The translations under genes and the position numbers were made by a program. From Candidatus Omnitrophota bacterium (GTDB taxonomy: Bacteria; Omnitrophota; Gorgyraeia; 2-01-FULL-45-10), in the NCBI GenBank assembly GCA_016935115.1, contig JAFGRN010000014.1, positions 1-41,856 on the forward strand: DNA of 41,856 nt, read 5' to 3'. Of this stretch, positions 13,639 through 36,679 are shown one piece after another (the stretch's first letter is position 1; the number at the start of each line of letters is the position of its first letter). Below the pieces are notes generated by a model that was not told where the DNA came from, made no database searches, and worked only from the letters and a program-made list of their open reading frames with translations.

Positions 13639-13763
13639 TAGCGAAAATATCCCCCGCTCGTACCAGGTATCTTTCGGCATACCTATAAGGGAAAGTGTTA
13701 CAAGGCTCCCCACCCGGGCTGTAAGGGCTGACTACGGATGAGAAGCCGGGGATATTTTTGCTA
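13639..13763. repeat. MITE-like element with 20-bp terminal inverted repeats (R2, class A)
   Basis: TAGCGAAAATATCCCC (13639-13654) faces GGGGATATTTTTGCTA (13748-13763), and pairing extends to 18 of 20 bp. The 125-nt element starts 11 nt after the lpxI stop. Its interior contains an 18-mer CACCCGGGCTGTAAGGGC (13711-13728) that recurs exactly at 35325-35342 and in reverse complement at 35154-35171. It also carries GGTATCTTTCGGCAT, close to the arms of the 35-kb element. No ORF inside is credible. Confidence 0.8.
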
Positions 13764-13843
13764 TGGAAGCAGCTGCCGGGGACAGGTCTGAGAAGGATTT
13801 TGAAAACGTCCCTGATTCTACAGTAGCGAGGAGAGGGAGAGTT

Positions 13844-32475: not shown

Positions 32476-32720
32476 GGGATTTTTCAGCTATCAGCTTCAG
32501 GTGGAAGTGACCAAAGCGATCCACCTGGAGCGACTGTCGTAAAAATGCGATACCTATAGGCGATATACCGGGACAAGGAAACTGCTCCATGGCTTATGTG
32601 TATGCAGGTTCATTGGCCATCGCATTTTTACCACAGCGAATTTACATGCCTAATGTAAATTCGCGGCAAGCGAAAGGTGGTCGCTTGGTCACATCTGTAG
32701 GGATGGGACCGAAAAATCCC
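32476..32720. repeat. long palindromic structured element (R3, class B)
   Basis: GGGATTTTTC (32476-32485) faces GAAAAATCCC (32711-32720). Inside are nested arms: GTGACCAAAGCGATCCACCT (ends 32526) against AGGTGGTCGCTTGGTCAC (32675-32692), an exact 13-bp pair GTAAAAATGCGAT (32539-32551) / ATCGCATTTTTAC (32619-32631), and an exact 12-bp hairpin GCGAATTTACAT / ATGTAAATTCGC around GCCTA. The result is a branched fold over the whole 245 nt. Conserved patches CTGGAGCGA, ACCTATAGGCG and ACAGCGAA recur in the 35.5-kb copy. It begins 2 nt after the peptidase stop and fills most of the 300-nt gap before pabB. The 63-aa ORF inside is not credible. Confidence 0.8.
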
Positions 32721-32738
32721 GAAAAGGGACGTTTTAGC

Positions 32739-32767
32739 TTGAATTTACGCGTGATATTATACATAAT
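32739..32767 (+). promoter_or_regulatory. promoter of pabB, predicted leaderless transcript
   Basis: TTGAAT (32739-32744) and CATAAT (32762-32767) are 17 nt apart. The expected start point, about 7 nt after the -10, is the A of the pabB ATG at 32774. No Shine-Dalgarno sequence precedes the ATG, which fits a leaderless message. Confidence 0.6.
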
Positions 32768-32773
32768 TGAAAT

Positions 32774-34171
32774 ATGCTGAGCGCGACTATAGAAGAGATC
32801 AAGGATCCGCCGGAACCGCAGGAGATATTCCGTTCGATGCACGATCGCGCCTGCGGCTTCTTCCTGGATAGCGCATGTGATCCGGAAAAACTGGGGCGCT
32901 ATTCGTTGATGGGATGCGACCCGTTCCTGGTATTCAGGTCCAAGGGTGATGCCATCATGTTGGAACGCCCCGGCCGCCCGACGGAGAAATTGACGGGCAA
33001 TCCTTTCCTTGTATTAAAAAAACTGCTGAAAAAATACCCCGCAAGGCCTGTAAAGGAGATTCCTTTTGCCGGAGGCGCCGTTGGATATTTCTCCTACGAC
33101 CTGAAGAACTTCATAGAGGACCTGCCGGACCGCCCGCCGGATGACCTTAAGATTCCGGATTGCATCCTGGGGTTTTATGATTCGGTCGTTATATACGACA
33201 ACCTTAAGAAGAGGTGTTATATTTCGGACATGGGAATAACCGGAGGGGCTTCGAAGCGTCTGGCGAAACTTATCCGGGCCGCTTCGCGTAAAGGGACAGG
33301 CCCGGAGGATTTTAATCCGCCCAGGAACGTGAGGTCAAATTTCTCGAAACGTTCATATATGGCCGCCGTCGAAAGGGCAAAAGATTATATCCGGAAGGGC
33401 GATATATATCAGGTCAATCTTTCCCAAAGATTTAAAGCCGTTCTCGCCTGCGGGGCATTCGGCCTTTATATGCGGCTGAGGGAATGTTCTCCGGCGCCGT
33501 TTGCTTCATATCTAAATTTCGGACAGGTGAAGATATTAAGCTCATCGCCGGAACGTTTTCTCTTTAAGAGGGGCGGCTATATCGAGACCCGGCCCATAAA
33601 AGGGACCAGGCCGCGCGGCGCCGATAAGGTTTCAGACGCGGCTATGGAAGCGGAACTGAAAGCCAGCCGGAAGGACATGGCCGAGCATATCATGATAGTG
33701 GACCTGGAGCGCAATGACCTGGGCAGAATATGCCGCTACGGCTCCGTCGGAGTGGATGAATCGGCGGTCATAGAGAAGTATGCAAATGTCTTTCATATGG
33801 TTTCAACGGTCTCCGGCACCCTGAAAGACGGAGTCGATCCCGTCGACTGCCTTTTGGCGGCTTTCCCGGGAGGGTCGATAACGGGAGCGCCCAAAATCCG
33901 GTCGATGGAGATTATCGAGGAGCTTGAAAATGTGAAGAGGTCCGTATATACAGGAGCCATAGGGTATATAGGTTTCGATGGCAATATGGATACTTCCATA
34001 GTGATTAGAACCTTACTGGTTAAAGAAAGAGACGCGTATTTCCAGGTGGGCGGGGGCATAGTTGCCGATTCCGATCCCGAAAAAGAGTATGATGAGACCC
34101 TGCATAAAGCCGCCGGGCTCATTGACGCGCTCGGCCTTGAATCGAAGAATAAGGAGCCGATCCCGGCATGA
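32774..34171 (+). CDS. pabB: aminodeoxychorismate synthase component I
   Basis: PabB converts chorismate plus ammonia to aminodeoxychorismate for folate synthesis. The chorismate-binding domain contains 'YIRKGDIYQVNLSQRF', 'SSSPERFL', 'ETRPIKGTRPRG', 'MIVDLERNDLGRIC', 'AFPGGSITGAPK' and 'YTGAIGYIG'. The Lys of 'PIKGT' is the PabB hallmark; TrpE has Ala there. At 465 aa it is normal. It pairs with pabC by a 4-nt overlap. No pabA glutaminase gene is in the window. Confidence 0.92.
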   Translation: MLSATIEEIKDPPEPQEIFRSMHDRACGFFLDSACDPEKLGRYSLMGCDPFLVFRSKGDAIMLERPGRPTEKLTGNPFLVLKKLLKKYPARPVKEIPFAGGAVGYFSYDLKNFIEDLPDRPPDDLKIPDCILGFYDSVVIYDNLKKRCYISDMGITGGASKRLAKLIRAASRKGTGPEDFNPPRNVRSNFSKRSYMAAVERAKDYIRKGDIYQVNLSQRFKAVLACGAFGLYMRLRECSPAPFASYLNFGQVKILSSSPERFLFKRGGYIETRPIKGTRPRGADKVSDAAMEAELKASRKDMAEHIMIVDLERNDLGRICRYGSVGVDESAVIEKYANVFHMVSTVSGTLKDGVDPVDCLLAAFPGGSITGAPKIRSMEIIEELENVKRSVYTGAIGYIGFDGNMDTSIVIRTLLVKERDAYFQVGGGIVADSDPEKEYDETLHKAAGLIDALGLESKNKEPIPA

Positions 34172-35019
34172 ACAAAGTCTGGCTGAATAAGAAGATAATT
34201 GACGCTGAAAGCGCTTGCATACCGATATCGGACAGGGGTTTCATGTACGGTGACGGCGTGTTTGAGACAATGCGTTCTTATTCCGGAATGGTTTTTAAGA
34301 TAGACGCCCATCTTGACAGGTTGTTCAATTCCCTTAAAGTGGCGAAATTTTCCAGTCCTTACGCAAAAGATTATCTGAAGCGGGAAATATACAGGCTGCT
34401 TGACGCCAATCGCCTTAAAGAAGCGTATATCCGCCTAATGATAACCAGGGGCGAGGGGCGATTCGGGATGGAACATAAGGATAGATTTATTCCTAATACC
34501 GTGATAGTCGTAAAAGAGTTCCACAGCTACCCGGCGCGCGTGTACGCTAAGGGTATAACGGCCGGAGTGGTCGATATAAGGCAGAATGAGCTATCACCGG
34601 TTTCGGGGATCAAATCCTTGAACTTCATTAATTACATCCTGGCGAGGTTTGAGGCGAAAGAGAAAGGTTATGACGAGGCCATTCTCGCGAATTCCAGGGG
34701 GCATATTGCCGAGGCGACCACGAGCAATATATTCATGGTGAAGGGAATGGGGCTTATAACACCATCCCCCGATAGCGGTATCCTGCCCGGCATTACAAGG
34801 ATGGTCGTGATGCAGCTGGCCAGGCGCCGCGGGATATTCGTCAAAGAGATGGCCGTTACCAGGCGCGAGCTATATAATTCAGATGAGATATTTCTCACCA
34901 ATTCACTCTCCGAGGTCCTGCCGGTAGTTGCCGTTGACGGGAAGAGGATAGGCCGCGGCGTTCCCGGAGAAACAACCCGGCTCCTTCACAGCCTCTACCG
35001 CAAAGAAACCTCCCGATAG
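34168..35019 (+). CDS. pabC: class IV PLP enzyme, probable aminodeoxychorismate lyase
   Basis: This is a fold-type IV PLP enzyme: 'ISDRGFMYGDGVFETMRSYSG', the PLP lysine in 'SGIKSLNFINYILARFEA', 'DEAILANSRGHIAEATTSNIFMV' and 'TPSPDSGILPGITR'. These motifs are shared by PabC, IlvE and D-amino acid aminotransferase. The direct coupling to pabB makes the lyase that releases p-aminobenzoate the best choice. At 283 aa the length fits. Activity as a branched-chain aminotransferase is not excluded. Confidence 0.8.
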   Translation: MNKVWLNKKIIDAESACIPISDRGFMYGDGVFETMRSYSGMVFKIDAHLDRLFNSLKVAKFSSPYAKDYLKREIYRLLDANRLKEAYIRLMITRGEGRFGMEHKDRFIPNTVIVVKEFHSYPARVYAKGITAGVVDIRQNELSPVSGIKSLNFINYILARFEAKEKGYDEAILANSRGHIAEATTSNIFMVKGMGLITPSPDSGILPGITRMVVMQLARRRGIFVKEMAVTRRELYNSDEIFLTNSLSEVLPVVAVDGKRIGRGVPGETTRLLHSLYRKETSR

Positions 35020-35031
35020 AGATATAATTTG

Positions 35032-35421
35032 TAGCAAAAATATCCCCTGTGCCCCCGCTCCAGTTAAGCCATAATCCAAAGTTATGTTCGCACCGGGTAT
35101 CTTCCGGCACAGGGGGTGAAGTATATTACAAAGCGACCACCTTCCCATAGTCAGCCCTTACAGCCCGGGTGCATCGCGGGGACGTGGAAATTCCCCTGCG
35201 AGGAATTTCCACTCGGAAAGGTCGCTCGCTCTCCCGCCAAATAGGCCGGATGTCAAGCAGAGTATTTTAATATGTATTTGGCGGGATCCATGCCACGCCC
35301 TACGACTTTCGACGCCCCGCTCAACACCCGGGCTGTAAGGGCACTAATGATAAGCTCCAGGTGAGTCGCTTTGTAACACTTTCCCTGTATGCCGGAAGAT
35401 ACCCGTTACTCTCTCCCTGAA
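35032..35421. repeat. giant palindromic element (R4A, class A)
   Basis: This begins TAGCAAAAATATCCCC, identical to the right terminal repeat of R2 read in reverse complement. It contains nested inverted arms: GGGTATCTTCCGGC (35095-35108) / GCCGGAAGATACCC (35391-35404), TTACAAAGCGACCACCT (35126) / AGGTGAGTCGCTTTGTAA (35359), and the exact 18-bp pair GCCCTTACAGCCCGGGTG (35154-35171) / CACCCGGGCTGTAAGGGC (35325-35342). Two further perfect 11-bp hairpins lie inside (35184-35212 and 35233-35285). A 23-nt stretch beginning CCGCTCCAGTTAAGCC recurs exactly at 41705. No credible gene lies in the 712 nt between pabC and the next gene. Confidence 0.82.
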
Positions 35422-35663
35422 GCAAAAATATCGTATGGGGTGTCCCCAAATGGACCGTCCCCTGTTGCGGGGTGGCAGAACTTTTGGCACCTTGCTGGAG
35501 CGAATCTCTAAAATTTCGATACCTATAGGCGCTACAGACTTTATCATCGAAATTTTAGCGACAGCGAACGAGGAAGCCTATTGACGAGTGAGCGGCGAGC
35601 GAAAGCAAGTGCCAAAAGTAAATGCCACCACTGAGGGGATGGGGGCCCGGGGGATATTTTTGC
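35422..35663. repeat. class B structured element inside class A ends (R4B)
   Basis: GCAAAAATATC (35422-35432) faces GATATTTTTGC (35653-35663). Inside are GGTGGCA (35471) / TGCCACC (35623), CTTTTGGCACCTTGCT (35481) / AGCAAGTGCCAAAAG (35604), and an exact 13-bp pair CTAAAATTTCGAT (35508-35520) / ATCGAAATTTTAG (35546-35558). CTGGAGCGA, ACCTATAGGCG and ACAGCGAA occupy the same places as in R3, so the two are homologous. Compared with R3, the 13-bp stem differs at three positions, each compensated on the other arm. Confidence 0.82.
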
Positions 35664-35674
35664 CCTGATAGCAT

Positions 35675-35704
35675 TTGACCTTAATAGCATATATATGATA
35701 CAAT
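35675..35704 (+). promoter_or_regulatory. promoter of the deoxyhypusine-synthase-like/kds operon
   Basis: TTGACC (35675-35680) and TACAAT (35699-35704) are 18 nt apart, the same layout as the hydrogenase promoter. Predicted start is near 35711, giving a leader of about 20 nt with an AAAGGAAA ribosome site before ATG 35732. It begins 11 nt after the end of R4. Confidence 0.65.
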
Positions 35705-35731: not shown

Positions 35732-36679
35732 ATGCCTCATAAGCCAAGATCGAGGGCGGATCTGAGCAAGATAAGGACTATTCCGCTCAATGCCCGCAAG
35801 TGCAAGGTCTCCATAGGCGATTTTGCCCATTCTGCGAAGAAAGGCGAGAGTTTCAGGAAGTTCTATGATTCCCTTCCCAGGATACTGGCCGCCCAGAGCC
35901 TAAGAGCCGTTTCTGATGCGGTAGTCACCGCATACAGGAAGGGGAAGATGATCATTATAATGATGGGCGCGCACGTCATAAAATGCGGAATCTCGCCTCT
36001 TATTATCGATCTCATGAAGCGGGGCGTCCTGAAGGCCGTGGCATTAAACGGCGCCGGCGTAATTCACGATACCGAAATAGCGATGATCGGGCGCACAAGC
36101 GAGGATGTGGGCGAGGCTATTCTCGACGGGTCATTTGGCATGGCAAAAGAGACGGCGGGATTTATAAATCAGGCCATAAGCGCGGGGTTTAAGAAGGGAA
36201 TCGGCATAGGCGAATCCGTCGGAGGCGCTATCGTCAAAGCGAAGTTGCCTCACAGTAATATGAGCATATTGGCCAATGCTTATAAGCTTAATGTACCTGT
36301 GACCGCGCATGTCGCGATAGGCACCGACATAATACACCAGCATCCTTCGGCGAACGGCGCGGCGATAGGCGAGGGCTCTCTCCTCGACTTCAAGAACTTT
36401 ATCTACAGTGTTTCCAGGCTGGAGGCGGGAGTACTTATCAACCTGGGATCCGCCGTGATATTGCCGGAAGTGTTCCTGAAGGCTATTACGGTGGCGCGCA
36501 ACCTCGGCCATAAAGTCGATACGCTTACCACCGCAAATTTCGATATGATAAGCCAGTACAGGCCGCATCAAAATATACTGTCGAGGCCTACGTCTAAAGG
36601 CGGCAAGGGTATTAATATAATAGGTCACCACGAAATAATGATCCCGCTCCTGTACCGTTCGATAATAGAGAGAATATAA
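35732..36679 (+). CDS. deoxyhypusine synthase-like protein, function unknown
   Basis: The 315-aa protein resembles the deoxyhypusine synthase fold: 'IIIMMGAHVIKCGISPLIIDLMKRG', 'ALNGAGVIHDTEIAM', 'VTAHVAIGTDIIHQHP' and 'LINLGSAVILPEVFLKA'. The catalytic Lys motif of true DHS ('EAVSWGK') is not seen; the corresponding tail reads 'SRPTSKGGKG'. Bacteria lack eIF5A, so the substrate is not hypusine. It starts the operon that continues with heptose and Kdo genes, 1 nt before the next gene, so a link to envelope sugar or polyamine chemistry is possible but unproven. Confidence 0.75.
   Translation: MPHKPRSRADLSKIRTIPLNARKCKVSIGDFAHSAKKGESFRKFYDSLPRILAAQSLRAVSDAVVTAYRKGKMIIIMMGAHVIKCGISPLIIDLMKRGVLKAVALNGAGVIHDTEIAMIGRTSEDVGEAILDGSFGMAKETAGFINQAISAGFKKGIGIGESVGGAIVKAKLPHSNMSILANAYKLNVPVTAHVAIGTDIIHQHPSANGAAIGEGSLLDFKNFIYSVSRLEAGVLINLGSAVILPEVFLKAITVARNLGHKVDTLTTANFDMISQYRPHQNILSRPTSKGGKGINIIGHHEIMIPLLYRSIIERI

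Follow-up and report, generated by a model that had tools for sequence, protein, structure and literature searches.

The whole stretch analysed here, called the window, comprises 41,856 nucleotides of a Candidatus Omnitrophota bacterium (GenBank assembly GCA_016935115.1, contig JAFGRN010000014.1, positions 1 to 41,856). It contains two inverted repeats, R3 and R4B, which share a branched fold while their outer arms differ in sequence, and this raises the question of what keeps the fold. A first-pass annotation had attributed it to selection, leaving open whether the fold works as RNA or as mobile DNA recognised by hairpin shape. That one branched fold is conserved while the sequence changes is strongly supported by our analysis. 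As to its nature the data lean to mobile DNA, with RNA as a rival, because G.T pairs are rare, gene orientation is not fixed, promoters or terminators are not conserved, the sites are polymorphic and the copies of one genome cluster together. The explanation that we favour, with moderate confidence, is a non-autonomous mobile element that is recognised by its single-stranded shape and of which R3 and R4B are two copies.

R3 (32476-32720, plus strand) is a complete element with a shell and a core, and is located directly behind the TGA stop codon of a HycI-like hydrogenase-maturation-protease gene and ahead of a pabB-like gene. Its outer arms on the plus strand, GGGATTTTTC (32476-32485) and GAAAAATCCC (32711-32720), pair with each other. 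The outer arms also pair in R4B (35474-35628 including its own shell arms GTGGCAGAACTTTTGGCACCTTGC / GCAAGTGCCAAAAGTAAATGCCAC, plus strand), as had been noted. The R3 core (32520-32682, plus strand) is a full-length match to our covariance model (176.3 bits), and the R4B core (35490-35611, plus strand; 81.8 bits) is a short form that lacks hairpin P5. The 13-bp stem of the first-pass annotation, here called P4, was found in both cores at the places given, with all three differing positions compensated. Its arms, all on the plus strand, are GTAAAAATGCGAT (32539-32551) and ATCGCATTTTTAC (32619-32631) in R3, and CTAAAATTTCGAT (35508-35520) and ATCGAAATTTTAG (35546-35558) in R4B. Since two genes, for a pabB-like chorismate-binding enzyme and a class IV aminotransferase, lie between R3 and R4 (the compound repeat that includes R4B), the interval given in the first-pass annotation covers two separate elements on the same strand. 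R3 folds with a z score of -9.6 as DNA and -7.1 as RNA and R4B with -5.0 as DNA; in neither case did any of 200 shuffles fold as well.

The consensus fold has a long closing stem P3 (CGCCTGGAGC / GCGGAAGGCG) with a symmetric GGA/GGA internal loop, followed by a three-way junction. The junction bears stem P4, within which hairpin P5 is optional, and hairpin P6 (GCGAATTTACAT-GCCTA-ATGTAAATTCGC at 32636-32664, plus strand, in R3). The outer arms are wholly variable in sequence between copies. In a MAFFT alignment of 25 sequences, which was not fitted to the structure, double changes were present in 28 of 52 pairs (145 cells, against 40 in shuffles). Among 95 distinct copies aligned with the model, an alignment that is fitted to the structure and therefore leans towards it, double compensatory changes were present in 45 of 50 pairs (847 cells, against 246 in shuffles) and 93.2% of the cells were paired, against 73.3% in shuffles. 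None of 500 shuffles reached the observed covariation in either set, and sliding the pairing partners of the 95 copies gave far lower covariation in all slid versions. Covariation was thus also found in the further copies, and the conservation of a branched fold that had been proposed from R3 and R4B is strongly supported. In P6 of some copies tandem G.A mismatches replace A-T pairs, and these are seen as linked G.A/A.G cells.

Three patches that had been described as single-stranded were only partly so. The consensus has pairs in parts of CTGGAGCGA and over most of ACAGCGAA, where ACAG pairs with CTGT and GCGAA opens the next hairpin. In the third patch, ACCTATAGGCG, only GGC is engaged, and it pairs with the GCC of a hairpin loop in a pseudoknot.

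This covarying loop-loop pseudoknot was absent from the earlier description and is new here. In nearly every copy, GGC in the internal loop of P4 is paired with GCC in the loop of P6. On the plus strand the two trinucleotides lie at 32559-32561 and 32648-32650 in R3, where the pairing can be extended to 5 bp (TAGGC 32557-32561 with GCCTA 32648-32652), and at 35528-35530 and 35576-35578 in R4B, where it can be extended to 6 bp (ATAGGC 35525-35530 with GCCTAT 35576-35581). Of the pseudoknot cells, 99.6% are paired. Twelve copies (in G018, G021 and G026) carry GCC/GGC in place of GGC/GCC, and three (in G011 and G013) carry AGC/GCT. Folded copies from other families have CGCGCC/GGCGCG (L182, L186 and L187) or CAAACGCG/CGCGTTTG (L177). 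Permutation of the loops among elements gave a P value of 0.002 for the distant set, a value from which relatedness is not removed. On a tree of family f1 built without the pseudoknot columns, GCC/GGC and AGC/GCT need up to three changes each, and single origins are possible. Nothing else indicates selection on a folded single strand as strongly as the covariation of the pseudoknot.

With R3 as a query, at least 18 additional matches, fragments as well as full copies, were found in its own genome, many of them at contig ends, as expected because repeats break assembly. In 57 relatives the same query matched only within the family of the window. A covariance model built from 25 cores detected the element in all 26 genomes of this family, with 1-25 copies each. 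In 384 genomes of the phylum the model detected it in 10 more, with E values, which are rough for this model, from 1e-23 to 1e-6. These 10 genomes belong to six other families of the same class (f2, f9, f16, f22, f23 and f51), in which its occurrence is sporadic. The sample consists of draft genomes from part of the phylum, and the copies are not independent. The element is about 160-250 bp long and is intergenic, apart from a few spurious overlapping calls of open reading frames (ORFs). A search with the P6 motif gave 11 named stretches, all from Candidatus Omnitrophota, and no match in viral contigs. An origin from a phage or plasmid was rejected on the absence of viral matches to this motif, PLSDB not having been searched. 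No Rfam family matched at the gathering threshold or at a loose one, on which a known RNA family was rejected, and no paper found joins Omnitrophota with noncoding RNA or with repetitive extragenic palindromic (REP) repeats.

Comparison of insertion sites shows that the element comes and goes. In G001 and G003 the gene upstream of pabB ends beside the pabB start and no element is present, which constitutes an empty site; in the window R3 directly follows the TGA of that same upstream gene. Relatives without R3 have the next gene immediately beside the upstream one, so that the insertion may have interrupted an operon. Among the genomes examined, model matches on the 3' side of a helicase gene are confined to G003, G016 and G018; G001 and G002 have other repeats or remnants there. 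On the 3' side of ilvC the element is present only in G002 and G011. The helicase and ilvC gene ends are intact at these sites. In 22 of the 34 cases where a gene reads into a defined end, its stop codon falls between -3 and +1 relative to the terminal ATTTTT.

On a tree the copies group by genome. Within the genome of the window, cores and shells have been exchanged: the R3 core is 94% identical to the core of L008, the R3 shell is 94% identical to the shell of L010, and R4A, the other element inside R4, combines a shell 94% identical to the one in copy C18 (L008) with another core. L017 (at about 150-210) has a shell without a core (CTGGAGCGGCAAGCGGAAGG), and this could have resulted from deletion of extruded arms between GCG repeats.

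The pairs themselves bear on whether the folded strand is DNA or RNA. In the 95 copies we counted 3695 Watson-Crick cells, 74 G.T, 47 A.C and 248 others, mostly G.A. G.T thus accounts for about 2% of the roughly 4,060 cells. In RNase P, taken from 16 of these genomes, its share is 7.4% (101 G.T and 13 A.C cells), and the contrast in G.T:A.C between element and RNase P is significant (Fisher P 1e-6); 32 tRNAs gave 30 G.T (4.4%) and no A.C. The covariation of the element is present alongside a G.T use below the levels of both RNase P and tRNA. In pairwise comparisons at 25-30% divergence, G.T made up ~3% of the changed P4 pairs, against ~28% in RNase P. In a DNA hairpin, G.T and A.C mismatches should both be penalised.

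The orientation of the copies to flanking genes is mixed (40/26/16/13, counts that are approximate since length was the only criterion in calling ORFs). The flanks of the copies have no conserved promoter or terminator, and nothing outside the arms is conserved. Together with the nearly pure Watson-Crick stems, this favours a folded DNA strand over an RNA gene. At 66 of 101 loci the sense strand falls on the side poorer in G (P 0.003), a bias which may only mirror gene orientation.

Based on these observations, one strand of the element folds through its closing stem and three-way junction and is locked by the pairing of the P4 internal loop with the P6 loop. Such a strand could be exposed during replication or by extrusion, and would then act as single-stranded DNA or as an extruded cruciform, bound by shape by a putative recombinase or transposase. 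By analogy with the hairpins of REPINs, which are thought to be bound by REP-associated tyrosine transposases (RAYTs), the arms would be free to drift in sequence as long as they remain complementary. More tentatively, the element could be the substrate of a new transposition or recombination system, neither Y1 nor TnpB, that reads a pseudoknotted three-way junction in single-stranded DNA, inserts at stop codons and keeps the arms only as complements.

Several results weigh against a mobile DNA element. No transposase or recombinase is linked to it: the model had no match within the 1.5 kb flanks of 31 Y1 genes, copy number is uncorrelated with the number of Y1 genes (rho 0.05, P 0.80), and TnpB is present in none of the 26 genomes of the family. 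A target-site duplication was not demonstrated, the flanks of the empty sites being too diverged to show one. The changes among the 95 sequences are not independent events. G.T still exceeds A.C (74 to 47, P 0.018), and two features, the loop-loop pseudoknot and the tandem G.A pairs, are no less characteristic of RNA than of DNA. The residual excess of G.T suggests that the acting strand is the sense strand. From the search for a partner, mobilisation as a REP by a RAYT was rejected on the two Y1 results, a TnpB/omega RNA system on the absence of TnpB from the 26 genomes. An autonomous partner, as for a miniature inverted-repeat transposable element (MITE), was not found; the ends ATTTTTCG/CGAAAAAT are common in family f1.

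The same excess of G.T over A.C favours the alternative that survives best, namely that the element is a structured RNA not yet described, either trans-acting or the RNA of a mobile element, with several copies per genome and a fold that works as RNA. Its three-way junction, covarying pseudoknot and conserved unpaired motifs would fit such an RNA, as would its presence in every genome of the family. We nevertheless regard it as the less probable explanation. RNase P from these genomes uses G.T about four times as often, and the sequence outside the fold holds no promoter or terminator that is conserved. Orientation is mixed, and a gene that reads into the element from one side only meets it in antisense in 29 of 41 cases. 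In addition, sites come and go among close relatives, and Rfam gave no match even at the loose threshold.

That the element is not mobile and acts in cis at gene ends, where a hairpin after the stop would protect the 3' ends of mRNA, insulate transcription or shape DNA topology, we consider unlikely. The close spacing between stop codons and the terminal ATTTTT argues for it, as does the recurrence of orthologous genes (helicase, ilvC, ftsW and others) beside copies in different genera. Promoter-like sequences follow R3 (32739-32767) and R4 (35675-35704), in each case just before the next gene. However, the element is missing in most genomes at the two genes followed across the family, and with R3 included all followed sites are polymorphic, which led us to reject a vertically conserved cis element. 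The unpaired motifs and the pseudoknot need a reader more specific than one for a simple hairpin. An intrinsic terminator was also rejected: the 5' T-tract and 3' A-tract are the reverse of the arrangement in such a terminator, and a scan gave no more terminator-like sites than shuffles.

Finally, template switching in palindromes during replication could copy one arm onto the other with no need of a function, and it is documented to homogenise arms and to mimic compensatory change (PMC8794818). It agrees with the nearly perfect Watson-Crick stems, and may contribute to that perfection, but as the whole explanation it is very improbable and largely refuted by the pseudoknot, since it cannot account for the covariation of two short loops in different hairpins. 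Nor can it account for unpaired motifs that are nearly invariant across families, and the excess of single over double changes in the closest copies (16 to 1 at <5% divergence) fits ordinary mutation followed by compensation.

The remaining features of the window concern R4 and its relatives. R4 (35034-35663, no strand assigned) is a compound nested repeat with outer arms at 35034-35056 and 35641-35663 around R4A and R4B. R4A (35094-35405, minus strand; core stem arms at 35154-35181 and 35315-35342) carries a second type of core, with the stem GCCCTTACAGCCCGGGTG...GCGGGGACG, which was also found in L015, L267 and L281 in the same shells; it appears to have compensated stems of its own. Similar GCGGGGACG...CGCCCCGCT hairpins are located 3' of the ilvC stops in G021 and G006. 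Downstream of R4, a 315-aa ORF (35732-36679) had no Pfam match at E 0.001; by eye it may resemble deoxyhypusine-synthase-like proteins.

The R4 shell has a degenerate relative at 13639-13763 (no strand assigned), GCGAAAATATCCCC..GGGGATATTTTTGC, which includes part of the R4A arms. In the region 13639-13800 it is followed by a GGGGACAGGTCTG repeat, of a kind seen beside a Y1 gene (L065). This region lies at the start of a hypF-like ORF in which the C-terminal HypF domains alone are present, which points to a possible truncation of hypF. The genome has three Y1 transposase genes with flanking repeats of their own, GGGGACAGGTCTGAAGCTAA, TAGGGACAGCGACCATTTTT and AAAAAGGGGTCAGAGTGATTTT, which are unrelated to R3 (L065 1201-1440 and 1930-2000; L066 960-1000 and 2130-2160; L067 890-910 and 2490-2510).

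A fold and a tertiary contact that are kept across families of a little-studied phylum amid drift of the sequence need a partner that reads shape, and the covariance model and the list of copies allow a search for it. The results also show that covariation alone is no proof of RNA, and that the balance of G.T to A.C and the orientation to genes should be checked first.

Among known systems, the structured RNAs in Rfam, including the HEARO and omega RNAs, are likewise structured, repeated and sometimes tied to mobile elements, whereas the element has no Rfam match and occurs in genomes without TnpB. In integrons, the enzyme reads attC as a single strand in its folded form, in which the stems vary and unpaired positions are conserved. 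The resemblance is functional only, as the junction fold of the element is different and its copies are not in cassette arrays; no GTTRRRY/RYYYAAC boxes of attC were noticed in the element sequences read, without a search aimed at them. Bacterial MITEs (RUP, ERIC, Correia) are short, non-autonomous, intergenic elements with inverted ends, all of which applies here. MITE copies normally have a common terminal-repeat sequence, whereas the arms of the element vary from copy to copy and keep only their complementarity, and no parental transposon was found.

REPINs are the nearest known kind. Like REPs, REPINs and bacterial interspersed mosaic elements with their RAYTs, the element is intergenic, palindromic, noncoding and multi-copy, is located at gene ends, and shows dispersal within genomes and mosaic assembly. 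Compensatory changes in the arms are shared as well, being known from REPINs (PMC3116915). It differs in size and architecture (~160-250 bp, a three-way junction and a pseudoknot, where REPs have ~20-60 bp), in number (tens of copies, against hundreds) and in having no linked Y1 transposase. As no link to a RAYT was found, we do not class the element as a REPIN, though it behaves like one.

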